DNA of 64,000 bases from positions 8,902,501-8,966,500 of the forward strand of contig NZ_CP064703.1 of NCBI RefSeq assembly GCF_023101085.1, in the 5' to 3' direction. The translations under genes were made by a program, and so were the position numbers. This DNA is from Bradyrhizobium sp. 170. GTDB lineage: Bacteria > Pseudomonadota > Alphaproteobacteria > Rhizobiales > Xanthobacteraceae. The notes beneath the pieces are model-generated. The model did no database searches and was not told the origin of the DNA. It was given only the letters and a program-made list of their open reading frames with translations. Positions 4,423 through 59,173 of the stretch are shown in pieces. The stretch's first letter is position 1. Each line of letters starts with the position of its first letter.

Positions 4423-7400
4423 ATGCGCGGCCTGTTTCACTACCTGCACGGAATGAAGGCCCGAACCGCAGCCGCGGGGCGGCACCTTGCCGCGACGGTC
4501 CGGGGGCCGGTGTTGTGGCTGACCCTTTGCGGCGGCTTGCTGGTCGCGGCGATTTTCGTCGGCACCATCATGATGGCCGGTGAATTTCGTGAGCGCGCGC
4601 TTCTCAACAGCGAACGCGAGCTGGAGAATACCGTCCTCCTGCTTGCCCGTCACTTCGACCAGCAGTTCGAAGACTCCGACACGCTCGCCGACGACGTGAT
4701 CTCCCGGCTGCAAATTTACGGCATCGCCTCGGAGAAGGAATTCCGGAAACATGTCGGAAGCTCCGAAGCCCACGAGATCCTGAGGTCCAAGGCGGGCGTC
4801 CTGTCCTATCTCGGCGACATCTCGATCTTCGATTCCAATGGCGACATGGTCAACTGGTCGCGGCCGCTGCCGGCGCCTGCCCTCAATATCTCCGAACGGG
4901 CCTACTTCAAGAGCTTCAAGTTCGATTCGCGATCGCCATCCATTCTGACCGAGTCGGTTCGCAGCTATCTCACCGGTAATCTGAACTCCGTCATCGCCCA
5001 CCGATTGCGAGGCGAAGATGGCGTTTTCCTCGGCGTGATGACGCGGCGCATCAACCCGGTCAACTACGAAAAATTCTTCGCTTCCGTAGCGCTCGGAACG
5101 GGCGCCGCCATCTCGATGTTTCATGCCGACGGCACCCTGCTGGCGCGCTATCCGCGGGTCGACGACCTGATCGGCCAGAATTTCGCAAAGGCGCCGCTGC
5201 TGCAGCGGGTCCGGGAGCGGGGCAGCCAGCAGACGCTGCGCGTACAAAGCCCGATCGACCAGACAGACCGGCTGGGATCTGCAGCCCCGCTCGGCCACTA
5301 CTCGGGCATCGTGGTCGCGACCAACACGGTTACCGCCGCGCTCGCCGATTGGCGCGAACAAACCAGGTTCCTGGTCATCGCGGCAACGCTGGCGGCGACG
5401 GTGATCGCCCTGATCCTGTTCCTGATTATCAGGCAGATCACCCGGCAGAACCGCGAGGCGCAGCAACGGCTGGAAGCGGAACGAAGCCGGCTCGACACCG
5501 CGCTGAACAACATGATCCAGGGACTGGTGACGTTCGACGCCTCGGCGCGCCTCGTCACCTTCAACCGGCGCTATGTCGAAATGCACGGCCTGTCGGCCGA
5601 CATCGTGAAGCCGGGTTGCCACTTCCGCGACCTGATGAAGCATCGCAAGGACAACGGATCGTTCGACGGCGACGTCGATGCGTTCTGCTCCCTTGTCATG
5701 CGAAACGTCGCGCGCGGTCAGGTCACCCACAGCGTCATGCAGTGCCAGGACGGACGCGCCTTCCTGGCCGTCAGCAGGCCGCTCGCGGACGGCGGCTGGG
5801 TCGCCACCATGGAAGACATCACCGAGCGGCTCAATCTCGAACAGGAGCGCGACCGCAACTACGCCTTCCTGAGCCAGATCATCGACCACATCCCCTCGCA
5901 GATCACCGTGAAGGACGTGCACGACCGGCGCTATTTGCTGGTCAACCGCGTGGCGGAAGCCCAGTTCGGCATTTCGCGCGACCTGATCGTCGGCAAGACG
6001 GCCCTTGACCTCTTTCCAAAAGCCGCTGCCGAGCTCATCGCGGCCGACGAGGAGAAAACGCTGCAATCTCCCGACGGCCTGTTCAAGGACGAGCACGTCT
6101 GGGAAACCCAGGGCATGGGCCCGCGCTACATCACCTCCAAGCGGCTCGGAATCCGCAATGCGGCGGGTCAGGCGCGCTACATCATCAACGTCGTCGACGA
6201 CGTTACCGAGCGCCGGTTGGCCAACGAAAAGATCGCGCATCTGGCGCATTACGACGCGCTGACCGACCTTCCGAACCGGGTGCTGTTCCGCGAGCAGATC
6301 GAGCGCGAGCTTCGCAAGGCCGTTCGCGGCCAGCAGTTCGCGCTGCTCTATATAGACATCGACGAGTTCAAGGGCATCAACGACTCGCTTGGACACCATG
6401 TCGGCGATGAACTTTTGAAGGCGGTCGCGGCCAGCCTCAAGGATTGCACCAAGCCCGGCGATCTCATCGCCCGTCTCGGCGGCGACGAATTTGCGGTGAT
6501 CCAGACCGCGGTCAGCGGCCGCGCCGAGGTCGAGGAATTCGTGACGCGTATTTACGAGGCGATACGCCAGCCCTATCAATGCCTCGGCCACCATCTTTCG
6601 ACCGACGCCAGCGTCGGCATCGCGATCGCGCCCGAAGATGGCACCGAACTCGACCAGTTGATCAAGCACGCCGACCTCGCGATGTACGCCGCCAAGGCCG
6701 AGGGACGCCGCGTCCATCGCTTCTTCGAGCCTGCCATGGATGCCCGCGCCAAGGCGCGGCTCACCATGGAGCAGGACCTGCGGCAGGCATTGGCCGATGG
6801 CGACTTCGAAATCTACTACCAACCGCTACTCGATCTCGCGAGCGGCGAGGTGACGGGCTGCGAGGCGCTGTTGCGCTGGCACCATCCCGAACGCGGCATG
6901 GTCTCGCCGGCGGAATTCATTCCGGTCGCCGAGGATACCGGCCTGATCAACGAACTCGGCGACTGGGTCATGCAGACCGCCTGCAACGAGGCGGCCGGCT
7001 GGCCGTCGCGGGTCAGGCTCGCCGTCAACGTTTCGCCGATCCAGTTGAAGTCGCCGACGCTGGCGCTGCGGATCACCGGCGCGCTTGCCGCCTCCGGCCT
7101 GCCGCCCGACCGGCTCGAGATCGAAATCACCGAGGCGGTGCTGATCCATGACGACGAAAGCGCGCTGGCGATCCTGCATCAGCTCCGCGCCATCGGCGTG
7201 CGCATCGCGCTCGACGATTTCGGCACCGGCTTCTCCTCGTTGAGCTACCTGAAGCGGTTCCCGTTCGACAAGATCAAGATCGACCGCTGCTTCGTCAGCG
7301 ACATCGAGGTCGACGGCTCGGCCGCGATCGTGCAGGCGGTGGTGAGCATCGCCGCAGCCCGCAACATGACCACGACCGCGGAAGGCGTCGAGACCGAGCA

Positions 7401-7530
7401 GCAGCGCGAGATGCTGCGTCAGCTCGGCTGCACCCAGATGCAGGGCTATCTGTTCAGCGCGCCGAAGCCGGCGGCCGAGGCGAGGCGATTGCTGGGCGCG
7501 CGATTGGAAGCTGCGACAGCGGTCGCCTGA
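4423..7530 (+). CDS. Membrane-bound dCache-PAS-PAS-GGDEF-EAL cyclic-di-GMP protein
   Basis: 1035 residues. A first membrane helix (~28-52) is followed by a ~255-residue periplasmic sensor of Cache/PDC type, a second helix (~308-334), two PAS domains (~350-460 and ~475-590), a GGDEF domain (signature GGDEF at 686-690) and an EAL domain (EALLRW from 814). The inhibitory-site position before GGDEF reads KPGD, so the canonical arginine of RxxD is missing. The EAL catalytic set (LDDFGTGFSSL, KIKIDR, AEGVET, QGYLF) is complete. Both enzymatic halves look intact, suggesting a bifunctional or conditionally switched enzyme at the inner membrane. The last 85 bp overlap the 3' end of the convergent patatin gene. 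Confidence 0.93.
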   Translation: MRGLFHYLHGMKARTAAAGRHLAATVRGPVLWLTLCGGLLVAAIFVGTIMMAGEFRERALLNSERELENTVLLLARHFDQQFEDSDTLADDVISRLQIYGIASEKEFRKHVGSSEAHEILRSKAGVLSYLGDISIFDSNGDMVNWSRPLPAPALNISERAYFKSFKFDSRSPSILTESVRSYLTGNLNSVIAHRLRGEDGVFLGVMTRRINPVNYEKFFASVALGTGAAISMFHADGTLLARYPRVDDLIGQNFAKAPLLQRVRERGSQQTLRVQSPIDQTDRLGSAAPLGHYSGIVVATNTVTAALADWREQTRFLVIAATLAATVIALILFLIIRQITRQNREAQQRLEAERSRLDTALNNMIQGLVTFDASARLVTFNRRYVEMHGLSADIVKPGCHFRDLMKHRKDNGSFDGDVDAFCSLVMRNVARGQVTHSVMQCQDGRAFLAVSRPLADGGWVATMEDITERLNLEQERDRNYAFLSQIIDHIPSQITVKDVHDRRYLLVNRVAEAQFGISRDLIVGKTALDLFPKAAAELIAADEEKTLQSPDGLFKDEHVWETQGMGPRYITSKRLGIRNAAGQARYIINVVDDVTERRLANEKIAHLAHYDALTDLPNRVLFREQIERELRKAVRGQQFALLYIDIDEFKGINDSLGHHVGDELLKAVAASLKDCTKPGDLIARLGGDEFAVIQTAVSGRAEVEEFVTRIYEAIRQPYQCLGHHLSTDASVGIAIAPEDGTELDQLIKHADLAMYAAKAEGRRVHRFFEPAMDARAKARLTMEQDLRQALADGDFEIYYQPLLDLASGEVTGCEALLRWHHPERGMVSPAEFIPVAEDTGLINELGDWVMQTACNEAAGWPSRVRLAVNVSPIQLKSPTLALRITGALAASGLPPDRLEIEITEAVLIHDDESALAILHQLRAIGVRIALDDFGTGFSSLSYLKRFPFDKIKIDRCFVSDIEVDGSAAIVQAVVSIAAARNMTTTAEGVETEQQREMLRQLGCTQMQGYLFSAPKPAAEARRLLGARLEAATAVA

Positions 7531-9380
7531 CGCCGTTCCAGCGCGTCGGTGTCGAGTATGGCTGCAATCGCCGAACTGTCTCCCGCCTCCAGCGTCGCGA
7601 TGGCCTCTTTGGCCCAGAGGTAGGAGGCATCAAAGATCTCCGTGTGGCGATCGAAATCCGTCACGTCGATCCCGACCGGAGGCGGCGGCCGCATCACCGT
7701 ATCGAACGGCCCGACCGGCAACGTATCGTAGCGCTGATGCGCCACGAGGCTTCGCCACAGCACGTTCACCGCGCTGGGTGCGGCGGGCAGCAACTTCTTG
7801 CGGAACGGCGTCAGCATGGCGGCGATCAGTTCGAACCGTCCGGGGAGCGACGCATAGTCGACGTCGAACATCTCCGCCGCCGGCTCGCCGAAATGCACGA
7901 CCAGGTTGGGCCCGCTCTTGAGCTGGTGCATCGACGCCAAGGGCACGTTATCGATGAGACACCCATCGACCAGCATCGCCCCCTCCGGCGTGTAGAACGG
8001 CGGCAACAGTCCGGGGATCGCGCTCGATGCGCGCACCGCCTGCCAGAGCGGCCCCGTCCGGATCAGTTCGAGATTGTGGGTCGAAAGATTGGTGGCGACG
8101 GCGGCGAAGGGCCGCCAGCAATCCTCGATCCGGCAGTCGGGGCCGTACTGATGGGCAAGCGCGCGATCGAACGCCTTGTGATCCAGCAGCGCGTAACGCG
8201 GCCAGGTCGGCCGCCGAAAGCTTCTGCTCCTGACGAAGATCTCATGCGTGCCGCGCTCGAGATGCTCGGCTTCGAGATTTTTGGCAAAGCCGGCCACCAT
8301 GGCAGAGCCGACGCTGGTGCCGACATAGATATCGAACATCACGCCGCGTTCGCGAAACGCCTTGTAGATTCCGACATGCGCCGTCCCAAAACTGCCGCCG
8401 CCGGCGGCGACGAAGCCGATCGCCCGGCCGCACAGAAAACGGATCAGACTGTCGATATCGATCTGGTCTTCGAGGGCGACATGGTGGTTCATGAACACCG
8501 GCAGCCTTGCCAGCCAGGCCGCGGTGCCAGAGACCTCGCCGCTTCGCCGGTCATGAACGCGGACGAGGCGTCTGGCCGAGACGGCATGAACCTCGCAGGC
8601 GAAGGCCTCGATTTCCGTCAGTGCGGCCGCAGGCGCACCCCCGCGGCACGCGAACACCACCATGTCGGCCTGACGGATGGCCTTGCGCGCCCAGGGCGAG
8701 GCTTCGCGGCCGCCGAGATAAACCACCAGTGGTGCGGTGTGTTCGAGCCTGTTGAGCCATTCGGTGACTTCATGCGCATCGAGCGCGCGGCCGGGAAACA
8801 TCGCGTCGAGGCGGGCGGCGTCAACGATCTCGGCATGGGTGGCGGCCAGTCCGTCGCGCATCCGGCGCTCGAAAGCGCCCGGCAGCGGCTCCAATCCGCC
8901 GTCGATCAGCGCCACCGTTCGCGCCTTCGGCGAAGTAGGGAACGGCGCGATGCGCGCGGTCTCCTTGGCGAACCGCCGCGCCAGCGCGGCGAGCAGCGCC
9001 TCGACGATGGCGGGGGCTTCCTCGACCAGCTTCTGGTAGGCCGGGCGCGTCAACGCCAGCACGCTGGTGTCGCGGATGGCGATCACATCCGCCGTGCGCG
9101 GGACATTGGCGAAGAAGCCGATCTCGCCCACCAGCTCGCCGGCCCGAAGCTCGGCGATCGGCTCGAGATACCCGGTCTTGCGCACCGCGAGCGCACCATG
9201 CAGCACCAGGAAAAGCGAATCCGACGGCCCGCCTTGCGCAACCAGCATCTGCCCGCGCACCAGATCCTGGCGGACCATGGCGTTGAGAGCCTTCAGCCGC
9301 TGTTCGGAACTGAGCGTTCGAAACAGCGCGAACTCCTCCAGGGCGGAGCTCCACGCCAGTACCGAGCTCGATCCACTCAT
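7446..9380 (-). CDS. Cyclic-nucleotide-binding patatin-like phospholipase
   Basis: 644 residues with the architecture of NTE-type lysophospholipases. Residues ~15-140 form a cyclic-nucleotide-binding fold with the phosphate cassette GEIGFFANVPRTADV (85-99, Arg95). The patatin domain starts near 320 with the oxyanion-hole GGGSFG (327-332), the nucleophile elbow GTSVG (Ser356) and the catalytic Asp472 in a DGC context where most family members have DGG or DGA. The product probably hydrolyses phospholipid or lysophospholipid acyl esters, gated by a nucleotide. The coding region ends 85 bp inside the facing GGDEF-EAL gene, and the last ~28 residues (Ala/Asn/Arg-rich) are in that overlap and look poorly constrained. 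Confidence 0.9.
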   Translation of the reverse strand: MSGSSSVLAWSSALEEFALFRTLSSEQRLKALNAMVRQDLVRGQMLVAQGGPSDSLFLVLHGALAVRKTGYLEPIAELRAGELVGEIGFFANVPRTADVIAIRDTSVLALTRPAYQKLVEEAPAIVEALLAALARRFAKETARIAPFPTSPKARTVALIDGGLEPLPGAFERRMRDGLAATHAEIVDAARLDAMFPGRALDAHEVTEWLNRLEHTAPLVVYLGGREASPWARKAIRQADMVVFACRGGAPAAALTEIEAFACEVHAVSARRLVRVHDRRSGEVSGTAAWLARLPVFMNHHVALEDQIDIDSLIRFLCGRAIGFVAAGGGSFGTAHVGIYKAFRERGVMFDIYVGTSVGSAMVAGFAKNLEAEHLERGTHEIFVRSRSFRRPTWPRYALLDHKAFDRALAHQYGPDCRIEDCWRPFAAVATNLSTHNLELIRTGPLWQAVRASSAIPGLLPPFYTPEGAMLVDGCLIDNVPLASMHQLKSGPNLVVHFGEPAAEMFDVDYASLPGRFELIAAMLTPFRKKLLPAAPSAVNVLWRSLVAHQRYDTLPVGPFDTVMRPPPPVGIDVTDFDRHTEIFDASYLWAKEAIATLEAGDSSAIAAILDTDALERRQATAVAASNRAPSNRLASAAGFGALNR

Positions 9381-9515
9381 TTGGCGGTACCTAGTTTAAT
9401 TCGCGGCCCAACCTTAACGCCGGGCTCCCACTACCGCGAGCGATATAAAGCCGTGCGCGAGCGCACCGCAACAATGCGCTCGGATGCATTGCAGCATGAC
9501 CGCATCCGTCCCTGT

Positions 9516-10595
9516 TTACGCCGCCCACCGGCCGCGATTGTTCTCCGCGAGAACGGGCCGGATCAGCCGGCCAAAGCGCTCGGCCTCCTCGTCGTGCAGA
9601 TAGCCGGACAGGCAGAACGAATGACAGCCGGCATCGATGAATTGCTGCAGCGTGTCGGCGCACTGAACGGGATTGCCGACCACGGCGATGCCGGCGCCCG
9701 GACGGACCTTGGTGATGCCGGTCCACAGATGCGGCAGCAACAAATCGCCATGCTCGCGGGCAAGCTGCTGTACGCGCAAATTCGCTTCAGACTTGTTGTA
9801 AAGCGTCTTGATTTCCTGCTTCTGCCGCTCGGTGGCGTGGCGCACCAGTTGATCGGCGGCCTCCCAGGCGTCCGCTTCGTTTTCGCGGCAGATCACCTGC
9901 AGCCGCATGCCGAAGCCGATGTCGTTTTCGCGGCCATGGCCACGCGCCATCTCCCTGATCTCGGCAATGTTCGCGGCGATCTTTTCCGGCAGGTCGCCCC
10001 AGAACAGATGCACGTCGGAATGTTTGGCCGACAATTCCCAGGCCTGGCGCGAGCCGCCGCCGAGATAGAATTTTGGAAACGGCTGCTGGTGCGGGCGCGG
10101 CCTGATATGCGCGCCAGACAATTTGTGAAATCTTCCTTCGAAGTTTAGCGGTCCGCGCGTCGTCCACAGCGCTTTCAGGATCGAGACTTCCTCCTCCATC
10201 AGCGCGTAACGCTCTTCCTTAGGGTAACGCACGCCCTCGCCTTCGACCTCGCTCTCGTTCTGGCCGGCGATCAGATTGATGCAGATGCGCCCGCCCGACA
10301 TCTGGTCGAAGGTCGAGATCATCTTCGCCAGCAGCACCGGGTTGATGTAGCCCGGCCTTGCTGCAATCAGCGGCTTGATGGATGACGAACGCGCCGCCAT
10401 GAATGCGCCGGATATCCATGCTTCCCAGCACACCGAGCCGACCGGGATCAAAAGATATTCAAAACCGGCCGCTTCCGCCGCCTGCACCACGCGGTCGCAC
10501 AGTTCGGGAGAGCCCGGAATCTGCGCGTCCATCAGGCCATAGGCCGTGGTGTCGCCATGCGTGGGCAGATACCAGCCGAATTCGAGTGGACGCAT
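9516..10595 (-). CDS. LLM class flavin-dependent monooxygenase, alkanesulfonate monooxygenase (SsuD)-like
   Basis: 359 residues of the bacterial luciferase-like family. The N-terminus (GWYLPTHGD) and the cysteine in 'PVGSVCWEAW' resemble SsuD, which uses FMNH2 and O2 to release sulfite from alkanesulfonates. A barrel signature DQMSGGRICINLIAGQ and the family's C-terminal Arg-containing helix are present. No ssuE reductase or ABC transporter for sulfonates lies next to it, so the substrate is not certain. A ribosome binding site (AGGGAGAAA) precedes the ATG. It is divergent from yccF. Confidence 0.82.
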   Translation of the reverse strand: MRPLEFGWYLPTHGDTTAYGLMDAQIPGSPELCDRVVQAAEAAGFEYLLIPVGSVCWEAWISGAFMAARSSSIKPLIAARPGYINPVLLAKMISTFDQMSGGRICINLIAGQNESEVEGEGVRYPKEERYALMEEEVSILKALWTTRGPLNFEGRFHKLSGAHIRPRPHQQPFPKFYLGGGSRQAWELSAKHSDVHLFWGDLPEKIAANIAEIREMARGHGRENDIGFGMRLQVICRENEADAWEAADQLVRHATERQKQEIKTLYNKSEANLRVQQLAREHGDLLLPHLWTGITKVRPGAGIAVVGNPVQCADTLQQFIDAGCHSFCLSGYLHDEEAERFGRLIRPVLAENNRGRWAA

Positions 10596-10735
10596 GGACG
10601 TTTCTCCCTGTCGACACTTGTTGCTCGGTCGTTAGGCAGATGAGTTTAACGGTTGCGAAGGCCGGGGCAATCGGGTTCCGGTTGCGGGGCGGTTTTCGAT
10701 TTCAATCGTGCCTAGGGCAAGATAGAATTTCAGTC

Positions 10736-11143
10736 ATGTCACCGGTCTCGCTGCTGCTCAATATCATCTGGATCGTTCTCGGCGGCGCGTGGATGGCGTT
10801 CGGCTGGCTGGTTGCCACCGTCATCATGGCGATCACGATCATCGGGATTCCCTGGGCACGGGCCGCGTTCAACATCGCGGCCTATACCCTGTTCCCGTTC
10901 GGCTTCACGGCGATCTCTCGCGACGCCTATACGGGCCAAGAGGATATCGGCACCGGACCACTCGGGGTGATCGGCAACATCATCTGGCTGGTGCTGGCGG
11001 GATGGTGGCTGGCGCTCGGGCATCTCGCCACGGCCGTGGTGCTGGCGGTGACCATCATCGGGATTCCCTTTGCCTGGGCACACCTGAAGCTTGCCGGAAT
11101 CGCGCTTTGGCCGATCGGCAAGGTCATCGTCCCCACGGCTTAG
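10736..11143 (+). CDS. yccF: YccF family inner membrane protein
   Basis: 135 residues with two tandem YccF domains: each half has a hydrophobic helix rich in Trp and a TIIGIP motif (near residues 38-43 and 107-112), followed by an amphipathic segment containing FPFG or WPIG. The family (about 150 residues in enterobacteria) is a small integral inner membrane protein of unknown biochemical role. The open frame extends far upstream, but similarity starts at the ATG at 10736. It converges with the universal stress gene, 19 bp away. Confidence 0.9.
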   Translation: MSPVSLLLNIIWIVLGGAWMAFGWLVATVIMAITIIGIPWARAAFNIAAYTLFPFGFTAISRDAYTGQEDIGTGPLGVIGNIIWLVLAGWWLALGHLATAVVLAVTIIGIPFAWAHLKLAGIALWPIGKVIVPTA

Positions 11144-11162
11144 TTTCAGGTCAACCCTTGGT

Positions 11163-11639
11163 CTATCCCGAGGCTGCCGTTTCCGCCGGCTTCAGCCGCT
11201 CGAACTCGGCGTCGCTGATCTCGGTCTGGGCCACCAGCACGCTGCAGCGCAGGCGCTTGACCAGATAGCTGCCGATCGAGCCGAACCAACGCGCCAGCGT
11301 CCCCTGCGGGCGGTGGCCGACGACGACAAGATGCGCGCCGATTTCTTCGGCAACTTCGGCAATTTTCTGCCCGGCATCTCCGACCTCGAGCCGCGCGGTC
11401 GGCGAAAATCCCAGCGCCTTCAGCCGCTCGGTGCCTTCGTTCAGGATGGCCTTGTAATCCTCGGTCTGCAGTTCGATCGGGATCGTAAGGCCGGCCTCGG
11501 GCGTCATGATCGAGGAAACCTCGACGACGGCGAGCAGAAAGACCTCGGAACGGCAGAGTTGTGCGAGCTTTGCGCCCTCCCGCAACGCGCGCCGCCCCTC
11601 GACCGAACCGTCATAGGCGAGAAGAACCTTCTTATACAT
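11163..11639 (-). CDS. Universal stress protein (UspA family)
   Basis: 158 residues, a single UspA domain. It starts with the beta strand KKVLLAYDGS, whose Asp contacts the nucleotide in ATP-binding members, and ends with the Walker-like GHRPQGTLARWFGS (G-2x-G-9x-G/S type) followed by a hydrophobic strand (CSVLVAQTE). These cytosolic stress proteins often bind ATP. It is monocistronic; to its right lies the tRNA hotspot, so it marks the left boundary of the core chromosome there. Confidence 0.9.
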   Translation of the reverse strand: MYKKVLLAYDGSVEGRRALREGAKLAQLCRSEVFLLAVVEVSSIMTPEAGLTIPIELQTEDYKAILNEGTERLKALGFSPTARLEVGDAGQKIAEVAEEIGAHLVVVGHRPQGTLARWFGSIGSYLVKRLRCSVLVAQTEISDAEFERLKPAETAASG

Positions 11640-11768
11640 CGGACGTCCCCATCCATGGTCTAGAAGATTAACGCGGCAAGACTAGCACCAATTGAGGGGA
11701 AGGAATCGGAATTTTGCATGGGAAACGCGGGTCGCCGGCCGCCACCCTCGTCTCCCCACCCCTGCCAG

Positions 11769-11851
11769 GGCCGTTGCCCCTGCCCGGCCAATCGGCTAGA
11801 TGAACCCCCGAAACACCCGTAGCTCAGCTGGATAGAGCGTTGCCTCCGAAG
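11769..11851 (+). repeat. Left copy of an ~83-bp direct repeat including the tRNA-Arg 5' half
   Basis: Bases 11769-11798 (GGCCGTTGCCCC onward) are identical to 13072-13101, and similarity continues with a few differences through the next ~50 bases, which include the 5' half of tRNA-Arg. The two copies lie about 1.3 kb apart in the same orientation and flank the metallophosphatase gene. The stretch 11640-11768 upstream of it holds no gene that I can see. Confidence 0.85.
11813..11851 (+). pseudogene. Broken tRNA-Arg: 5' half only
   Basis: The acceptor 5' strand (ACACCCG against GCACCCG in the intact gene), the D-arm (GCTCAGCTGGATAGAGC) and the 5' anticodon stem are present. One C is missing at the stem/loop junction (TTGCC-TCCGAAG), and after base 11851 the sequence diverges completely; the variable loop, T-arm and acceptor 3' strand are gone. 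It cannot form a tRNA. A matching 3' half lies inverted at 12987-13016. Confidence 0.88.
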
Positions 11852-11988
11852 CTGGACTCTCTGCCGAGCGCGCCCGCTCAGATCTCCTTTGGAATCAGTC
11901 TCCTTAAACAACCAAACTCGCGACCTCGTCGTCAGTTTTCCGGCATGCGTGAACAACACAAGGCTTGGCGCGCCAACCAACCGCAAAG

Positions 11989-12924
11989 ATGAGCCAGTTG
12001 AGTATGTCCAATCCAGGATACGATGTCGTTGGCGATATTCACGGCTATGCAGATCCCTTGCACAGATTGCTACACAAGCTCGATTATGCCGAGATCGACG
12101 GGGTTTTCCGACATCCAGAACGAAAAATGATCTTTGTCGGCGACTTCATTGATCGCGGCCCGCAACAGCAAGAAGTTCTGCGGGTTGCCCGCACGATGTG
12201 CGAGGCGGGATCAGCCAGCGCGGTCTTGGGAAATCACGAGTTCAACGCCATTGGCTGGGCTACTCAACGTGAGAACGGAGACTTTCTACGAAGTCACTCT
12301 CCGAAGAATGCGCACCAGCACGCGGAATTTCTCCGTCAGTTCGAAGAGAACTCGGCCGCCCACCGGGATGCCGTCAGCTGGTTTAGGAGCCTGCCGGTTT
12401 GGTTGGACCTCCCTGGCCTTCGAGTGGTTCACGCTTGTTGGCACGAACCTTCGCGCGAGATCCTGATGTCAATGCTCGACGAGCGGGGCTGTCTCACGGC
12501 GGCAGGAATCCGGGAAAGTTATCGCCATGGAACAGACGCACACGCCGCCGTCGAGATACTTTTGAAAGGCCCGGAGCAGCATCTGCCCGAGGGAATTCAT
12601 TTCTTCGACAAGGACGGCCACAAGCGGGAGGAAGTCCGACTCCGTTGGTGGGATCAAGACGCGAAAACGTTCCGAAGCGCAGCTCTCAGCATGGACGGGC
12701 GAGAAGACGAGCTTCCTGATTCACCTCTCCCTAGAGATTTCCGATACACCGCGAAAAAACCTGTGTTCTTCGGCCACTATTGGCTGCACGGAAGTCCGAC
12801 GATGACAGCTTACAATGCCGCATGTCTGGACTTTAGTGTCGCCAGGAAGGGCTATCTAACGGCTTATCGGTGGTCGGGGGAAACTCACTTGCTGAAGGAG
12901 AACCTGGTTTCGGTCCCGGCTTAG
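11989..12924 (+). CDS. Metallophosphatase of the PPP (serine/threonine phosphatase or diadenosine tetraphosphatase-like) family
   Basis: 311 residues from the ATG at 11989 (a TTG at 11965 or ATG at 12004 are alternatives; no start has a strong ribosome binding site). The di-metal motifs are all visible in order: [23 protein letters not shown] and the late GHYWL histidine. The fold is that of the calcineurin-like PPP/ApaH group; the substrate could be phosphoprotein or a dinucleoside polyphosphate. Its base composition looks more A+T-rich than the neighbouring genes. It is the only gene between a broken tRNA 5' half and an inverted tRNA 3' half, so it is probably cargo of an integrated element or of a rearrangement. 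Confidence 0.85.
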
Positions 12925-12986
12925 GCGGGTACATCGCCTGCGGCGCAGCGATTTCGGCCCGCCACAGTCCCGCACGTGCTCTTCCA

Positions 12987-13016
12987 GCGCACCCGACACT
13001 GTTCGAACGTGTGACC
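12987..13016 (-). pseudogene. Inverted fragment of the tRNA-Arg 3' half
   Basis: Read on the minus strand from 13016 to 12987, this 30-base stretch matches the variable loop, T-arm and acceptor 3' strand of the intact tRNA (GGTCACACGTTCGAA... then GTGTCGGGTGCGC) with a small change at the T-loop/3' T-stem junction. No 5' half lies upstream in that orientation. Together with the 5' half at 11813-11851 it looks like the two parts of a second tRNA-Arg copy, separated and one inverted. Confidence 0.82.
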
Positions 13017-13071
13017 GACGCCTGAAAGAGGGCCACGCAACCCTCCAACCGAGCCTTCCAAGCCCTTAACT

Positions 13072-13155
13072 GGCCGTTGCCCCTGCCCGGCCAATCGGCT
13101 AAACGAAGCCCCGAAGCACCCGTAGCTCAGCTGGATAGAGCGTTGCCCTCCGAAG
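13072..13155 (+). repeat. Right copy of the ~83-bp direct repeat, running into the intact tRNA-Arg
   Basis: This is the partner of 11769-11851. Its first ~44 bases are the upstream flank of the intact tRNA and probably carry its promoter region; the rest is the tRNA 5' half. Because the flank is duplicated along with the tRNA, a tandem duplication of the locus or a recombination event copied more than an attachment core. Confidence 0.8.
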
Positions 13156-13192
13156 GCAAAGGTCACACGTTCGAATCGTGTCGGGTGCGCCA
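13116..13192 (+). tRNA. tRNA-Arg (anticodon CCG)
   Basis: A complete 77-base tRNA with encoded CCA. Acceptor stem GCACCCG (13116-13122) pairs with CGGGTGC (13182-13188), G is the discriminator and CCA ends at 13192. D-arm GCTC...GAGC, anticodon stem TTGCC/GGCAA with loop CTCCGAA (anticodon CCG, reading CGG), T-arm ACACG-TTCGAAT-CGTGT. The 3' end overlaps, on the opposite strand, the last codons of the serine recombinase gene. Confidence 0.96.
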
Positions 13193-14797
13193 CTTCGGTA
13201 CAAAGCTGGGCACTCCAAAACCTGCCGATTTTGCGCTTGAGGCGGCGACCAGGGTGCGCAGGAGCACGTTTTTCGACCCCATGATGCGAACCCCTTTCGC
13301 GTCCACCTCGATGCGCTGGGCCAGCGCGCGGAGGTGGTCGCGGCGGTAGCCGCCCGACTCGGTCCGCATGCGCTTGCGGGCCTGGCTGGCGAAGGTCTTG
13401 AGCGCCTGGGGTGTGATGCTCGGCCCAGCCCGATCAAGCGCGCCCTCGGCCCGCTCCGCGTCAGTGCGGGCCTGGTCGCGGACGGACTTCAGCTCGGTCA
13501 CGCGCTCCTTGAGCAGCGGATCGGATACGTCGGCGACTCCGTTTTCAATCGCGTCATACAATCGCTTGAGTTTGGCTTCCGCCTCGGACGCACGCTTGCG
13601 CAATTCGGCGATATGCGCCGTTCGGCGCTCGGCGCGCTCCTTCCGGCGATACAGAACGGCCGATAGAACTTCCTCGAGACGTTTGGGCTGCAAAAGGCGC
13701 TGCTCGATGTGCTCAGCCACCGCGCTGTCGAGCTTCTCCATCGGAACGGTACGGCCCTCGCAGCCAGTCTCCCCCTGCCGAGCCTTGGTCGAGCACGTGT
13801 AGTACCTGTACCGCCCACTCTTCCCGGTCCTCAGCTTCATCGCGCCGCCGCACGCGGCGCAGAAGCAGATGCCGGTAAGGAGGGTCGGTCCGCTGACGAC
13901 GCGCGGCGCGGTTAGCGTGGGACTGCGTGTCCTGAGCAGCATCTGCACGGCCTCGAACTCGGCGGCGTCGATGATCGGCGGCACCACCATCTCGACCACC
14001 TCGGCCTCCGGTTTGCGCTCGCGCGTCTTCCAATACTTAGTGTTGAAGCGATGGCGGCCGATATACGTCGTGCGGGTCAACACCTTGTGCACGGCGTCGA
14101 CGCCCCAGCGTCCGCCATCGCGCGTCCGGATGCCGGATTCGTTCAGATGCTTGGCGATCGATTTGACGCCCATTGACCCCGAAGAGCCGTTTCCCTCCCG
14201 CGCCAGGCGATAGATCAGCCGCACGGTCTCGGCCTGGATGGGATCGATCTCCAGTGTCTTCTTGGTGCGGTGGCCACGCTGCTCGGCGGCTTCCACGATG
14301 CGGTAGCCGATCGGCGGCAGCGCGCCATTCCAGAAGCCTTGGCGCGCGTTCTCCTTCATCGCCCGCAGCGTATGCTTGGCGTTCTCCTTGGACTGATATT
14401 CGTCGAACAGCGCCATGATCTGGCGGATCATGTTGCTCATCGGATCGTCGCCAAGCTCCTGAGTAATCGACACCAGCCGCACGCCGCTCTTGGCGAGCCG
14501 GCGGACATAGAACTCAAGCTGGAACTGGTCGCGGAAGAAGCGGCTGAAGCTGTGGACCAGGATCACCTCGAACGCCGACGGCTTTGTCGTCGCGGCATCG
14601 ATCATACGCTGGAATTCCGGCCGCCGATCGTCGGTCGCGGATGCGCCGGGCTCGACATAGTCGGTGACGATTTCCCAGCCGCGCGACGCGCAATAGCCTT
14701 TCGCTTGGCGGCGCTGATCCGGGATGAAGAGATCGCTGTCCGCCTGCCGTCCCGTTGAGACCCGCAGGTAGAGTGCCGCCCGAACCGTTACAGCCAT
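13163..14797 (-). CDS. Large serine recombinase (resolvase/recombinase/zinc-ribbon)
   Basis: 544 residues. An N-terminal serine resolvase/invertase catalytic domain (~5-150) has the nucleophile in YLRVST (Ser14) and the arginine motif SFSRFFRD. A 'Recombinase' DNA-binding domain (~165-290) and a zinc ribbon ([10 protein letters not shown] ... YYTC ... GC) follow, then a long charged coiled coil (~385-460) typical of phage-type serine integrases. A GAGGGGA ribosome binding site lies before the ATG and overlaps the stop of the 78-residue gene upstream. The final nine residues, WRTRHDSNV, and the TGA are antisense to the tRNA-Arg T-arm and acceptor end, the mark of a recombinase gene abutting its attachment site. 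It is likely the integrase of an element in this tRNA; the far end of the element was not found. Confidence 0.93.
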
Positions 14798-14809
14798 GGT
14801 GATGTCCCC

Positions 14810-15046
14810 TCAATCCTTCCCAAACAACTCGTCGAACAGATCACCGAACCAGGCTTCGAACACGTCGATCTCAGTTTCGGTCACCGGCACGTCCTTCGGC
14901 CAGTCGTCCGTCACCGTCCATGTCACCGAAGCGCGCTTCGCTCGTCGTCGGCCAGGACGCGCGGGCGCACGCGCATAGTCGTAAAGATCGTCAAGTTGCG
15001 CGCGGTCCGGCGGACGCCGTGGCTGCGACTTGTGAGGGGGAGCCAT
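14810..15046 (-). CDS. Small acidic-tailed protein, partner of the serine recombinase
   Basis: 78 residues, ending 12 bp before the recombinase ATG on the same strand, so the two are almost certainly co-transcribed. The N-terminal half is basic and proline-rich (a stretch of Arg/Lys around residues 30-38); the C-terminal half is acidic and aromatic (VTWTVTDDWP, then FEAWFGDLFDELFG), predicted to end in an amphipathic helix. I recognise no named family. From context it could be a recombination directionality factor, a transcriptional regulator of the recombinase or a DNA-binding accessory; this is inference. The ATG has no clear ribosome binding site. Confidence 0.68.
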   Translation of the reverse strand: MAPPHKSQPRRPPDRAQLDDLYDYARAPARPGRRRAKRASVTWTVTDDWPKDVPVTETEIDVFEAWFGDLFDELFGKD

Positions 15047-15550
15047 GGCGCCACTGTGGCAATCTTGGCCGATCCGCTGAACGGCCGATGTCTACGCCAA
15101 GTCACGCTGCAGCCCTGCGAGCTCGCACTTTCTCTGCAGCATGAGCGCGATTGCGCAGAGCAGGCCATGAACGCATGGCAGCAAAAGAGCCGGGCCAGCG
15201 GAGCGCAGTCAAGGCCGCGAGCCGGCGGAGCCGGTCGCGCGAAGCGCGAGCCTTGACGGCGTTCCGTTGATCCGGCAGCGGCCTCCCATGCGGTCATGGC
15301 CAGACATCCCGCCGAGCACGCGCAGCAAACCGCTACGTTGCGATGGGTGGCGCTCGGGATATTGATTCCGAACACCTTTTTCGTTGAAGCGGCACTGGGA
15401 CGTTTTGCGCAGTGCCGTTACCGTGTCATCCAAAACAATATGCTGACAAACACTTACGACCCTCGACAGCACGGAGCGACACCGTCGCTTTTATCTTGCC
15501 GTCGATCCCAGACCTTGGTCGCCGCTCTCGTTCCCGCACTAACAAACGCA
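15047..15550. other. Gene-free stretch with one compound inverted repeat
   Basis: About 500 bp with no frame that looks coding. At 15208-15257 arms GTCAAGGC and GCCTTGAC enclose two smaller palindromes (AGCCGGCGGAGCCGG and TCGCGCGAAGCGCGA), a structured repeat of a different sequence family from the GTCATTGC elements. The rest shows no tRNA 3' copy that could mark the right end of the element. Confidence 0.6.
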
Positions 15551-16552
15551 TCAAAGCGACGGGTGTAAGAGCCGGTTGATGAGCTGAACCAGGGTGCCCT
15601 CCAACTCTTCCGGAGAGCTGATGGTGATGCCTTGTTTGTAGTACTGCTCGACCGGGTGGCCGATGCCTATCGCCGCCAGCCGAATGTCGCCGGCTTGCTC
15701 GATCTCGCTGGTGACACGGCTCAAATGGCGGTTCAGATACCCATCGCCATTCGTGTGCAATGTGGAATCGTCGACCGGCGCACCGTCGGACAGCACGATC
15801 AGACATTTCTGCCTTTCTTCGCGTCGGCGCAAACGCGACGCAGCCCATTCGAGGGCTTCGCCATCAATATTCTCCTTAACGAGGTCTGGCCGTAGCATCG
15901 CGGCACAGTGTCGCGCGCTCAGCTTCTCGCCGGCGCTGCAATATATGATGTGCAGCAGGTCGTTCAGTCGCCCGGGATAGGAGGGCTGGCGGTCGCTCAG
16001 CCATTTTTCTCGACTCCGACCGCCCTTCCAGCGCGCGGTCGTGAAGCCGAGCACTTCCTGCTTTGCTCCGAGGCCGTCGAGCAGGTCCGAGGCGACCAGC
16101 GCAGCCCTGGCCGCGAACAGCATAGGTTGTCCGCGCATCGATCCGGAATGATCGATGAGCAATGACACGATCGTATCAGCAGCCCCAAGACCGGAGTTGT
16201 CTTGGGGCTGGGCGGTCTCCATGCGCGCACGCCGTGCAGCAAGATCCTTTTCGAGGTCGTACAGCTGTTCGGGGTCGACCTTGGGAAAGCGCTCGGCCCA
16301 GCGCCGGTCAGAATCGGGGAGCACCGCAAGGACCGCATCCAAATCGTTGGCCTTGATCTCCACGTCAAAGTTTCGGGTATAGACCTGATAAGGCCGATCG
16401 GGATCGAACCGAACCGGGCGACGCCGCGATCTCCAAAGCGATGGCAAAAAGCTCAACGCAATGAGCGCAACGAGCGTCGTCAAGAAAGCGTTACGCCAAA
16501 GCAAGCAAAGCTCCAGTGATCTCGACAGTAAGGCGCAGCGAGTGGTTGGCAA
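15551..16552 (-). CDS. Membrane-anchored VWA protein related to the C-terminal domain of CobT
   Basis: 333 residues from a TTG; a TTG at 16504 with GGAG six bases upstream is an equally good start and would remove 16 residues. A hydrophobic anchor (~20-42) ends with a positively charged SRRRP stop. The region ~85-330 matches the von Willebrand A domain of the cobaltochelatase subunit CobT: DHSGSMRGQP (metal-ion-dependent adhesion site), GFTTARWKGG, SREKWL, PGRLNDLLHIIY, KENIDGEAL, LSDGAPVDDSTL and AIGIGH. The normal acidic N-terminal part of CobT is absent and no cobS or cobN is nearby, so it is an orphan whose role in cobalt insertion is doubtful. The absence of a strong start and the gene-poor setting suggest acquired DNA. 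Confidence 0.8.
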   Translation of the reverse strand: MPTTRCALLSRSLELCLLWRNAFLTTLVALIALSFLPSLWRSRRRPVRFDPDRPYQVYTRNFDVEIKANDLDAVLAVLPDSDRRWAERFPKVDPEQLYDLEKDLAARRARMETAQPQDNSGLGAADTIVSLLIDHSGSMRGQPMLFAARAALVASDLLDGLGAKQEVLGFTTARWKGGRSREKWLSDRQPSYPGRLNDLLHIIYCSAGEKLSARHCAAMLRPDLVKENIDGEALEWAASRLRRREERQKCLIVLSDGAPVDDSTLHTNGDGYLNRHLSRVTSEIEQAGDIRLAAIGIGHPVEQYYKQGITISSPEELEGTLVQLINRLLHPSL

Positions 16553-16646
16553 CGCAGACCGGATGATTCCGACGTGATCGGCAGCGCGAGAGCTTCGCCG
16601 CCGACCCGCGACGTACTAGCACGTACCCTTTTTGTGCCAGCCATGC

Positions 16647-16718
16647 CTGGTCGGCCTTCGACTTCGGCTCGATCGCGATTTCGACCAGCAACGGCTGCGC
16701 GGGGATGTCATCCGGCAT
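16647..16718 (-). pseudogene. Possible remnant of a translation elongation factor G gene
   Basis: Minus-strand frame encoding, near its N-terminus, PLLVEIAIEPKSKADQ, which closely resembles the segment at the start of EF-G domain III (…P.V..AIEPK.KADQ…). The similarity stops abruptly after Gln, and an in-frame stop lies just before the ATG at 16718, so only about 16-24 residues remain. The assignment rests on recall of the family motif and could be chance. Confidence 0.35.
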
Positions 16719-17050
16719 TCTTCAGTCTCGAATCTTCGCTCACCCACCTTCTTCGGCTCGGCGGCAGAATAAACAGTGCGTGCCACCTGATGGGTAATAC
16801 TATTCTAGCGAAGGTTGGTCGACAATCGAGAGGGATCGAGTGCCAAATCATAGCACCACGGCGAAGCAATAGTGCCCATCTTCATCGGCCGTGGCGCGCC
16901 ATTAACTTCCTGAGGTACAGTCGATTTCAGGATCGGTCCAAACGATCCTGGACCAAATTTCTGTTTAGCCCGGGATTTGGCCTAGGGAAATTTACGGCCC
17001 CCCGTTACTTGGTTGGCGGAACGGCAAGTCTTCAAGTCCGACCAAGTTTT
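16719..17050. other. Gene-free stretch with a small double inverted repeat
   Basis: About 330 bp, more A+T-rich than its surroundings, with no credible coding frame. At 16929-16954 two overlapping inverted repeats share bases: AGGATCG/CGATCCT and GGTCCA/TGGACC, giving alternative hairpins. No T-run follows. No mobile-element ends were recognised. Confidence 0.45.
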
Positions 17051-17512
17051 TCAACGGCGCTCGTCGCGGGGTTGTTCTCCCGGGCCGTGCTCCCGAGCGA
17101 TCAAGTCCTCGAGCCATAACGACTCGTTCCCCTCGGCGGGGACGCGCGTCGACTGCAATTGTCTCGTCCAGTTGCAGGCTTGCGGGTGATAAAAGACTTC
17201 GCGACCGCCCTTCGCCAGGATCGCGAAAAAAACATAGCGCTGTCCAGGTTGAAAAAAGAATTCGCAGTCCAGCGTTGCGTAGACGTCCATCAGCTTGATG
17301 GTGCGCGCGAGCCTTTCATGGCCTTTCCACACGCGGTCGACCTCAATGAGCCATGCATGGTTTTCTGACTGGACGACCTTGCCGGTAAACACATATTGGG
17401 CGCGGTCGAAGCCAGCCTCGGGAGAGATCGGATCGCAGCGACATGCGTGTGCAGCGCCAGCGCCCCACACCCAGCAGATCGCCAACACGAGGAGCCTCTC
17501 CAGATTCTTCAT
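17051..17512 (-). CDS. Secreted TIMP/netrin-like domain protein
   Basis: 153 residues from the ATG at 17512. A signal peptide (~1-23, ending GAGAAHA) is followed directly by CRCDP, so the mature protein would begin with or near a cysteine, as in tissue inhibitors of metalloproteinases. The following 'A..VFTGKVV', WLIEVDRVWKG and late cysteines match the bacterial TIMP-like (NTR/OB-fold) pattern. Four cysteines in the mature part could form two disulfides. The role is unknown; a periplasmic or secreted binding or inhibitor function is inference from the fold. It stands alone between gene-free DNA and the GYD gene. Confidence 0.65.
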   Translation of the reverse strand: MKNLERLLVLAICWVWGAGAAHACRCDPISPEAGFDRAQYVFTGKVVQSENHAWLIEVDRVWKGHERLARTIKLMDVYATLDCEFFFQPGQRYVFFAILAKGGREVFYHPQACNWTRQLQSTRVPAEGNESLWLEDLIAREHGPGEQPRDERR

Positions 17513-17625
17513 TCTTCCCACTACCTTCGCCGGTTCCGCGCTACTCGCGCCTGAGAAGAATGCCGCACCTCGCGCATGCGAGTGGCACAGGTGGTTGGCA
17601 GGAAACTGTGGCCACTACCCGGCGC

Positions 17626-17910
17626 TTAGCTCGCCGCGTCCTTGATCGCGGTTTCGAAGGTCTTTGCGTCGAAGGCCGGCATACTTTGGATCCGTCCCAG
17701 ACCCTGGGTCGCGTACCAGACGGAGAACGCGAGCATCGCCGCCTCATTCGGCGCATCGACGATGTCGACGAAATCGTAGTAACCCTGCGTGTAGTGGATC
17801 GACTCGATCTTGATGCCCAGCTTGTCGAGTTTTGCCTTGGCCTTGCTGGTCCGATCCGATTGCTTGCTTGCCCATTCCGGGCTCAGATTACCAAGCAGCA
17901 CATATTTCAT
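17626..17910 (-). CDS. GYD domain protein
   Basis: 94 residues starting MKYVLLGNLSPE, with a GGAGG ribosome binding site at the right distance. Features of the GYD family are present: an N-terminal beta strand, the YTQGYYDFVDIVDAP segment containing the G-Y-D-like core, and a C-terminal amphipathic helix (FDAKTFETAIKDA). The fold is a small ferredoxin-like dimer of unknown function. The frame is open for 32 codons upstream but these lack similarity. Confidence 0.88.
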   Translation of the reverse strand: MKYVLLGNLSPEWASKQSDRTSKAKAKLDKLGIKIESIHYTQGYYDFVDIVDAPNEAAMLAFSVWYATQGLGRIQSMPAFDAKTFETAIKDAAS

Positions 17911-18034
17911 GGCTACCTCCATGTCATGTTGATCATGCGCGAAGGACCACACGATTATACGCCTTCCGCGGACCCGTGCCATGCCGTTGTGCGTAGCGGG
18001 AACCACAAGATACGGGCTCCTCGGCCGACAAGCC

Positions 18035-18505
18035 CTACAGCCAGCGCCGTACTCGCGCGCGGTAGCGGCGATAGCCGTCCCCGAACTTGCGCTCGAGATA
18101 GGCTTCCTCGCGGGCGATCACACCGTAGCGGATGACAAGCGCGAAGGGCACCAGCGTCATCAGCAGCCAGAGGCCGTTGAAGGCAATGGCCAGGCCGATG
18201 AGCCCCAGCACCATGCCGAGATAGATGGGGTTGCGGGTGAAGCGGTAGGGGCCGGCCTCCACGATCGTCGTGGTCGGCAGGTTGGTGGGCACGTTCGAGC
18301 CGGCCCGGATCATGGTAAAGATCGCCCACGCGACCAGCGCCAGCGCAAGGACAAACACTATAGCGCCGAGCCAGCCTGCAGATATCGCGGCCGGCAAGAA
18401 CGGCAAGGGCATGAGCCAGTTGAGCGCGAGCCCGGCAAACACCGCGAGCGCCCACGCGATCGGCGGCCGGACAATGACGCCAGCGGTATCTGTCGTGTCA
18501 GCCAT
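18035..18505 (-). CDS. Isoprenylcysteine carboxyl methyltransferase / phospholipid methyltransferase family protein
   Basis: 156 residues from the ATG at 18505 (the frame stays open 19 codons further). Four to five hydrophobic helices precede the family's C-terminal signature: GPYRFTRNPIYLGM, then RYGVIAREEAYLERKFGDGYRRYRARVRRWL, where the conserved Arg-Asn-Pro and Glu-Glu-x-x-Leu motifs bind S-adenosylmethionine. The protein is an inner-membrane methyltransferase of unknown acceptor. Confidence 0.85.
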   Translation of the reverse strand: MADTTDTAGVIVRPPIAWALAVFAGLALNWLMPLPFLPAAISAGWLGAIVFVLALALVAWAIFTMIRAGSNVPTNLPTTTIVEAGPYRFTRNPIYLGMVLGLIGLAIAFNGLWLLMTLVPFALVIRYGVIAREEAYLERKFGDGYRRYRARVRRWL

Positions 18506-57393: not shown

Positions 57394-57571
57394 GCTGTTC
57401 TTTGAGCAGCGCCGACTTCGGGGGCATTTTGGCTTCCGTCCATGGCATCCTCAAGAACGGCTACGTCAGAACACCCTGGAAAACACAACCAGCGTCGATC
57501 ACGCAATTTGAACGGCCGGCGCGCTCAAGCCCGACCACCCGAGCGATGACAGCCGAAGGATAGTTGAGAAC

Positions 57572-57838
57572 ATGGCCAATACCACTTCCGCCAAAAAGGC
57601 GACCCGCAAGATTGCCCGCCGCACCATCGTCAACAAGTCGCGCCGCACGCAGATGCGTGGCGCGGTGCGCACCGTCGAGGAGGCGATCAAGAGCGGCGAT
57701 CGCGAGGCGGCACTTAAGGCGATGAAGCACGCGGAACCGGAACTGATGCAAGCCGCACAGCGCAACATCATTCACAAGAACAATGCGAGCCGGAAGGTGT
57801 CGCGCCTGACGCACGCGATCGCCAAGCTCGCGAAGTGA
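57572..57838 (+). CDS. rpsT: 30S ribosomal protein S20
   Basis: 88 residues, the usual length. All-helical, Lys/Ala-rich: [29 protein letters not shown] and [26 protein letters not shown] match S20. Binds the 5' domain of 16S rRNA. A weak AAGGA is 11 bases before the ATG. A strong terminator follows. Placement before dnaA is conserved in many alphaproteobacteria. Confidence 0.97.
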
Positions 57839-57861
57839 ACTGACAGAAATAGATTTTCGTC

Positions 57862-57893
57862 AAAAGCCCGGCCTCGCCGGGCTTTTGTTTTTT
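57862..57893 (+). terminator. Rho-independent terminator of rpsT
   Basis: AAAAGCCCGGC (57862-57872), loop CTC, GCCGGGCTTTT (57876-57886), then G and seven Ts. An 11-bp perfect stem with a T-run 24 bases after the rpsT stop. Confidence 0.93.
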
Positions 57894-59173
57894 CGATCAT
57901 GCTGGCGTGCGAGCATGATCCCGAAAATCCATCTCGCCACGCGCGTGCACCCTGTTGCATTTCGGGTTCACGCTGAACTGCGTGCCCTGGATTGACTGTG
58001 ACAATTCAATTGTCCCATTGCTGAGCACCGCCTTACGTGTCACATTTCTAACGCCCGTAGTTTTACGAGGTGCCGTTTGTTGCACCAGCGTTGTCGTGCG
58101 CATGTGCGAGAAGCTTGAGCGCTACGGCTGGCCGATCCGACGCCAGCTTCTTCTGCCCGCATCACTGCCGCGCTGGGTTACCCTGAAAAACAATTCCGAA
58201 AAACTTCGTCTCGCTAATCACTTATCCACATAGCGAGCACAAGCATTTTGAAAACTGGTCCCGGTAACCACGATTGTAACGGTTTCTTAAAAAATTTTGC
58301 GAGTGCAGCGAAAACTGTCACGCATGTCGGTGCCGCGCGATTCTGCGCGCGGATTCAAAAACTTGGTGTGGAGTTTCGCAATTGCAGTGTTGCAACACCG
58401 TCGAAGAGTCGGGCAGCGACGTCGAATCACGGATTGTCAGAAATCGCGCTTGGTGTATTTGTTACTCGTTCGCGACGTTCAAGGCTCTCCTGACCAGCGC
58501 GGTATGAGACCCAAGAGCGGACGTGCAAATCGGCGGCGGTGTGCGCGTTAGCGACGCTTTCCAAGCGAAGCTGAGTTGATAACTCATAGCAATATGAGAG
58601 TGGTTGTTCTGTGTCTAAATTTCCCGGCGTGGCGCTCGCGTTCAGCGCGCTCCGGACAAGGGGAATACGACAAGGGGACAAGATGCTTGCCAACGATGCA
58701 ACGATTTGGAACGCGGAGATCGTGAACGTGTTGAAGACGACAGACTGAGATACGCGGCGGCGCAGCGGTCGGACAAGCGGATGTTCGGTAGCAGCAGACT
58801 GGCTTTGAAAACACTGGTGATGTGATTGCTCGCCGCGCGTTCTCGCGGTGAGAGGGGGAGGTACTATGCTTTACGGAATCAACGCGACATTCGGCACGCT
58901 CTTTTCCATCGAGACCGCTTCTGAGTCCCTGGACGACGTTTTCGGTCGTCCTCCCACGCGAACTCCGGCTAGACCGGCGAGTACGCGCTGACCTCGCGGT
59001 AGCCTCTCACTCCATCCAGCCTTTGATTTAAGCAACGGCGATTCCGCCGAACGCTCGATCCTTGTCTGGTGGCTGAAGCTCCGCGTCGAGGTCACGTCTG
59101 GCAGGAAACCTGCAAGGCAACCCGCCAGCCGATTTCCCAAATACCATTACTCTTTCAGAAAAGTTCTCAGGCA
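57894..59173. other. Long non-coding region between rpsT and dnaA
   Basis: About 1280 bp with no credible gene on either strand. It contains one perfect DnaA box, a 6-bp inverted repeat with 3-bp spacer (GACAAT/ATTGTC, 58000-58014), an A+T-rich run (TTTCTTAAAAAATTTTG, ~58283-58299), a perfect 12-bp palindrome GTGTTGCAACAC (58387-58398) and a small inverted repeat CTCATA/TATGAG near 58584-58599. The dnaA promoter must lie here. It lacks the cluster of DnaA boxes expected of an origin. Confidence 0.7.
58222..58230 (+). promoter_or_regulatory. DnaA box (TTATCCACA)
   Basis: An exact match to the consensus DnaA binding site, about 950 bp before the dnaA ATG and the only perfect one in the intergenic region. 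It could serve autoregulation of dnaA or be part of a weak replication-related site. Confidence 0.7.

Follow-up and report, generated by a model that had tools for sequence, protein, structure and literature searches.

The insert that separates two copies of the tRNA-Arg(CCG) gene in the window is probably (about 0.7) a small unit without a recombinase, from a family of integrative elements whose target is this tRNA. The window is the whole 64,000-nt stretch of DNA that was analysed (G000:C1:8902501-8966500, from a 9.2-Mb genome in one contig). This reading draws on the anatomy of the insert, its recurrence in related genomes, empty sites in relatives, inverted-half variants common to several species, and stacked copies.

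Anatomy of the insert and its empty site

The features of the locus are listed in Table 1. ARAGORN found a single tRNA in the window, the intact tRNA-Arg(CCG). The decayed 5' half upstream of it (E 5.4e-11 against the 9.2-Mb genome) carries A in place of G1 and is missing one C of the anticodon loop. The 44-nt upstream flanks of the two copies, together with adjoining sequence, formed a 106-nt repeat at 84% in a repeat search. The preliminary description had reported split tRNA-Arg pieces with a copied flank, and had held that more than a short core was duplicated; both fragments align to the tRNA by BLAST, and the flank duplication bears out the second point.

Table 1. Features of the split tRNA-Arg(CCG) locus, in window coordinates.
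Feature	Position	Strand	Basis or remark
Universal stress protein (Usp) gene, native left neighbour	11163-11639	-	Pfam Usp
Left copy, native tRNA upstream flank (promoter region)	11769-11812	+	93% over 44 nt to 13072-13115
Decayed 5' half of tRNA-Arg(CCG), nt 1-40	11813-11851	+	97% to nt 2-40
Left end of the insert, starting CTGGAC like other members	11852-11988	+	Junction common to left ends in other genomes
Calcineurin-like metallophosphoesterase gene, cargo	11989 (ATG)-12924 (stop)	+	Pfam PF00149 (Metallophos)
Worn copy of the family right-end motif (CGCCACAGTCCCGGCAC-like)	12960-12986	+	By eye; exceeds the 2-substitution limit
Inverted, diverged tRNA-like copy and short arm	12987-13054	-	Best part 12987-13016
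Second copy, tRNA upstream flank (promoter region)	13072-13115	+	93% over 44 nt to 11769-11812
tRNA-Arg(CCG), intact	13116-13192	+	ARAGORN
Large serine recombinase gene, separate insertion	13163-14797	-	Pfam Resolvase, Recombinase, zinc ribbon

The best part of the inverted piece corresponds to tRNA nt 46-75 at 93% (E 7.6e-6 against the genome). It had been described as a 30-base inverted 3' half; that alignment stands, but it is only the best part of a longer copy. A permissive alignment matched 12987-13054 to tRNA nt 10-75 at 76% (E 6.6e-8 against 24 sequences), and the 5'-half-like portion agreed with tRNA nt 7-40 at 23 of 34 positions, a value reached by 9 of 1000 shuffles. The inverted piece is therefore a diverged, nearly whole tRNA-like copy, and more than a half.

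The phosphatase gene is the sole ORF between the element ends. The insert (11852-13023) has a G+C content of 57.1%, versus 64.4% on the left (6800-11800) and 61.5% on the right (13193-18193), in agreement with the earlier remark that the phosphatase region is more A+T-rich than its neighbours. Values as low as that of the insert occurred in 2.1% of 1172-bp windows taken one per 100 bases.

The preliminary description had called for a search for empty-site relatives. A query made of the Usp side and the 5' half was run against 149 genomes, and 12 loci matched it over its whole length. Eight of these (G056, G053, G037, G001, G023, G030, G049 and G038) are empty sites, with the Usp gene, the flank and one intact tRNA. 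The remaining four are the window itself (G000), a locus with the window's kind of element (G032), one with a different element and a variant tRNA (G027), and one that ends at the tRNA (G034). Relative to the empty site, the insert adds 1304 bp net. The proposal that an insertion had split one tRNA copy is upheld.

Recurrence of the ends in related genomes

Among the 265 genomes of the genus that were searched, at least 19 have the order inverted 3' half, promoter and tRNA 5' end. A strict pattern (inverted T-arm followed by the tRNA start) was present in 12 of the 265, and the reversed control pattern in none. BLAST added seven right ends (G032, G226, G231, G253, G165, G299 and G192); as it covered selected genomes only, the count of 19 is a minimum. 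In one of these genomes, G192, another element interrupts the tRNA that follows the promoter. The left junction, in which nt 1-40 are followed by CTGG, CTAG or a one-base variant, occurred in 15 of the 265 genomes, and in 17 when G000 and G151 were added.

Both ends were present in 16 genomes, in 14 of them on one contig. In all 14 one-contig pairs the 5' half and the tRNA lie on the same strand and the inverted part on the opposite strand. Paired ends on one contig are 1.2 kb (G000, G151) to 41 kb (G035) apart, and the cargo enclosed by clearly paired ends is mostly unrelated. The ends in G052 are 376 kb apart with unlike flanks (0.61), and their pairing is doubtful. In a database of named species, 16 stretches fitted the pattern: eight from Bradyrhizobium, three from Methylobacterium, two each from Nitrobacter and Afipia, and one from Methylopila. 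In two of these (L130, L138) the promoter precedes no more than the 5' half, after which comes a variant tRNA, and in another (L134) the inverted match is weak (69%).

From the cargo outwards, the right end starts with a terminal motif; the inverted tRNA remnant comes next, then a short arm, the promoter copy and the tRNA 5' half. A motif within two substitutions of CGCCACAGTCCCGGCAC, starting 26-37 bp before the inverted half, was present at 19 of 26 sites (18 flagged by script, and G299:34814 by position). The seven sites without it are the worn copy in G000, the second sites of G052 and G080, both sites of G231, and those of G199 and G302; G199 has one extra motif without an inverted half. 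The variant GACCGACGCC of the inverted half is common to G000, G151, G193, G080 and an Afipia stretch (L144), which shows that element and inverted part travel together. Judging from these comparisons, the inverted half beside a promoter and tRNA appears to be the fixed end of an element family.

The preliminary description had favoured a private history, in which the tRNA locus was duplicated in tandem just once, and phosphatase insertion and inversion of the 3' half followed in one copy. The window's repeats alone would permit such a course, but it is rejected because the arrangement recurs in related genomes: the same geometry and end sequences accompany different cargo in the 19 or more genomes of the genus and appear in other genera too, the motif is repeated from site to site, and the inverted-half variant crosses species. 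We regard that history as barely credible.

Conservation of the inverted part invites another explanation, namely that it has been retained because it serves the tRNA, for instance as a hairpin or an antisense RNA controlling tRNA-Arg(CCG). Nucleotides 41-77 are kept at 28-37 of 37 positions in the 26 right ends measured (all of the 27 but L134), better than the arm. However, the inverted tRNA is missing at the empty-site loci, so it is not native to all relatives, and where it occurs, the adjoining motif and cargo move along with it. As the reason for its presence, a function at the tRNA is very unlikely.

Arms that follow the inverted part fell into about three types when sorted by eye. Those of the type seen in the window, which occurs at 11 right ends with the window's own counted, resemble the tRNA 5' half, with 0-9 of 1000 shuffles reaching the observed likeness. 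Such arms would be expected if an ancestor bore a whole spare tRNA with its promoter, inverted head-to-head with the attachment site, as in tRNA-dependent integration; recombination between repeats would have put the promoter and 5' half before the host 3' half, and the spare tRNA would then have decayed. Another element family at the same tRNA does carry a complete variant tRNA. Against this history, most other arms are without such likeness: among 15 other right ends, five fell under 50 of 1000 shuffles, only G302 of these under 10, and the other ten were not below 50. Also not found was an unflipped form in which the motif follows an intact tRNA; six of the 265 genomes fitted the pattern used (the exact tRNA 3' part with GTGCCG within 5-34 bases, which diverged copies would escape), none of them with the motif. 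An ancestral spare tRNA is possible, as a tentative addition to the reading of the insert as a family member, with which it is compatible.

Two further candidates were set aside. The terminal motif as ordinary sequence downstream of the tRNA was rejected, as it was missing after the intact tRNAs inspected and in the six matches to the above pattern, which diverged copies would escape. Seven displaced 3' halves found elsewhere have arms that, by eye, are unlike those of the family.

The phosphatase gene adjoins the same right end in G193, G192 and G151, and is frameshifted in G151. Comparisons among the window, G193 and G192 gave 109, 134 and 129 changes at third codon positions versus at most 49 at either other position, a pattern as under purifying selection. 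The protein matched none of the PADLOC models, and its likeness to Pnkp and ApaH was far under the curated cut-offs; a defence function was rejected on these grounds.

Promoter copy, stacking and recombinases

Under the favoured reading, the element would have inserted between nt 40 and 41 of the first tRNA copy, presumably by site-specific recombination. The native promoter and tRNA 5' half would remain on the left, joined to the left end of the element, and the right end would bring a second promoter and 5' half reading into the host 3' half, to give one working tRNA. Further units could stack, because the rebuilt tRNA would again be a complete target. Repeated units are present in several genomes: six inverted halves follow one another in G299, with broken promoter pieces after two of them; in G231 the inverted half, promoter and 5' half are followed by a second unit; and the inverted copy occurs twice in both G080 and G052. 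The rebuilt tRNA therefore seems to have been hit again.

The promoter copy may have come in with the element or been produced from the host locus. Of 18 genomes compared, 13 have a right flank that resembles the left flank of the same genome more than that of any other (the exceptions are G052, G151, G199, G253 and G299). Identity averaged 0.91 for own pairs versus 0.76 for all pairs, and none of 20000 permutations reached this value, in a test that ignores kinship. One flank piece in G232 lies at a contig end, and that pair may be an assembly overlap. The promoter copy thus mostly matches the host's own flank, unlike the prediction of a simple carried-in promoter. The match would be accounted for by transfer within species, by gene conversion between the repeats or by a copy being made of the host locus. 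A broader scheme, in which units in Hyphomicrobiales mend the target tRNA from the 5' side by taking up the host promoter and 5' half at insertion, keep a constant inverted end and in this way stack small cassettes at a single tRNA gene as integrons do, is rather unlikely.

No serine recombinase, tyrosine integrase or other recombinase was found between the ends of the window's unit, which may have lost its recombinase or never had one, and would have relied on one acting in trans. Candidate enzymes are a serine recombinase or a tyrosine integrase, both common in larger members. Of the 17 genomes with a left end, 8 (G069, G080, G035, G251, G193, G299, G165 and G253) have a serine recombinase with two ParB/RepB-like proteins 1.6-8.8 kb from it, and seven of these 8 have an HNH protein as well. 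A tyrosine integrase, 80-100% alike, is found further in, also in 8 of the 17 (G253, G299, G232, G251, G193, G226, G035 and G165). The Resolvase/Recombinase protein near the left end is thus no commoner than the tyrosine integrase, in counts for which several elements were retrieved only in part. The tyrosine integrase of G253 scored 22.7 bits against the integron integrase model, which has a cut-off of 265. The larger member in G253 (30 kb, with recombinases) occupies the same Usp, tRNA and recombinase locus as the window's unit.

The window's left end matches other members for only about 6 bases past the tRNA. G251 contains an internal CTCCGAAG-CTGGAC site directly after a RepB-like gene, and the 54 nt around the window's left junction are 81% identical to that site. 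Loss of the recombinase module between two sites of the CTCCGAAG-CTGGAC type would give a short unit.

The recombinase-ParB-RepB module was not accepted as a proven integrase. At 19 further loci with relatives of the module (18 from other families and one from the same genus), nothing matching this tRNA was found in the stretch retrieved, and relatives of its recombinase occur in 63 plasmid records. The module (L116:5352-11133, L145-L166) recurs in many families of the order. Searches of viral contigs for a free phage form gave two matches without tRNA or element neighbours (L209, which was compared with the elements, and L210, which was only read), and none in the other search. With the left end of G253 as the query for a plasmid form, the records listed (20 of 41) matched only the first 42 bases, which are the tRNA part. 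The idea that GroESL is an ancient cargo which became fixed ahead of the tRNA in one clade was dismissed, as no GroESL was found in L033-L035 or L037-L040.

Comparison with known systems and other insertions at the same tRNA

Islands of the kind collected by Islander are likewise marked by an intact tRNA and a displaced 5' fragment in the same orientation, and 159 of 3919 islands have a 5' tDNA fragment (PMC4383910). The window has a 5' half upstream of the intact tRNA, on the same strand and the correct side, and eight loci in relatives have the empty site. The window's unit differs in the inverted 3' half at its tRNA-proximal end and in its promoter copy; it has no integrase, its phosphatase being the only ORF, and it is below the 2-kb lower limit (PMC4383910). 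As described there, the configuration and orientation filters of Islander drop oppositely oriented fragments, and right ends here regularly include an inverted 3' half. An inverted tRNA fragment would thus be treated as a false positive, and units with such an end would escape (PMC4383910).

In the tRNA-dependent lysogeny described for actinobacteriophages, an essential tRNA is also cut in the anticodon region and the element makes good the damage (PMC10865867). According to that account, the phage supplies a complete tRNA of its own, distinct from the target, and no tRNA is rebuilt at either junction; here the intact tRNA stands at the right junction, and only a diverged inverted copy is internal. 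In pTN3-like archaeal elements, the tRNA is rebuilt from the 5' side and read from a promoter at the element end, as proposed here, but with a tyrosine integrase and its promoter, as reported (PMC8371274), instead of duplicated sequence from upstream of the tRNA itself. Integrons resemble the family in being built of small units with few genes, and in having a repeated inverted site at the end of every unit (compare the array of six in G299); they differ in that the site here is a tRNA half, growth is at the tRNA gene, and no integron integrase was found. Among the titles and abstracts searched, none describes such an end, and the structure is best explained as a variant of tRNA-integrated islands not turned up in that literature. 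It points to another way of repairing the damage from insertion into an essential tRNA gene, and to small gene units, even without a recombinase, piling up at one locus. The terminal motif, inverted nt 41-77 and promoter copy make a searchable signature.

A second family at the same tRNA has a GGCAG-type left junction, which differs from CTGG/CTAG and was found in 12 further genomes of the 265. Its elements have the 5' half with the GGCAG junction and, after about 120 bp, a complete variant tRNA-Arg with a changed anticodon stem (for example L022:4920-6750; also L035, L043, L044 and L049). This family resembles tRNA-dependent integration, and is the closer likeness to the lysogeny described for actinobacteriophages.

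The serine recombinase gene at the right of the tRNA has its stop codon inside the tRNA. A relative of it (81% in DNA) adjoins the single intact tRNA of G023, without the phosphatase unit, and another (90% in amino acids) adjoins the full member in G253; none was found within 20 kb in G151, where the phosphatase unit is present. The gene belongs to a separate insertion, independent of the phosphatase unit, because G151 has the unit alone and G023 the recombinase alone. The earlier suggestion of two successive integrations therefore holds in another sense, that of a separate recombinase insertion on the far side of the tRNA.

The recombinase frame terminates antisense inside the tRNA (...WRTRHDSNV). 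In Methylobacterium (L130:78-974) a relative reads into the inverted 3' half with identical last residues, and in Nitrobacter (L138:661-1288) another enters the inverted 3' half with a similar end. In G027 a relative (70% in DNA) follows the variant-tRNA element. In the window, a CobT-like VWA domain gene (15551-16552) adjoins the recombinase gene, and the G+C minimum (0.548 to 0.593 in 1-kb windows) lies at 57501-59500, possibly a further insertion. G011 has two intact tRNA copies about 540 kb apart, at C16:459741-459817 (-) and C16:1000382-1000458 (+). The window's genome holds another 3' part of the tRNA (nt 25-77, 98%) at G000:C1:7188777-7188829 (L196), 1.7 Mb from the window, which is perhaps the end of another island.
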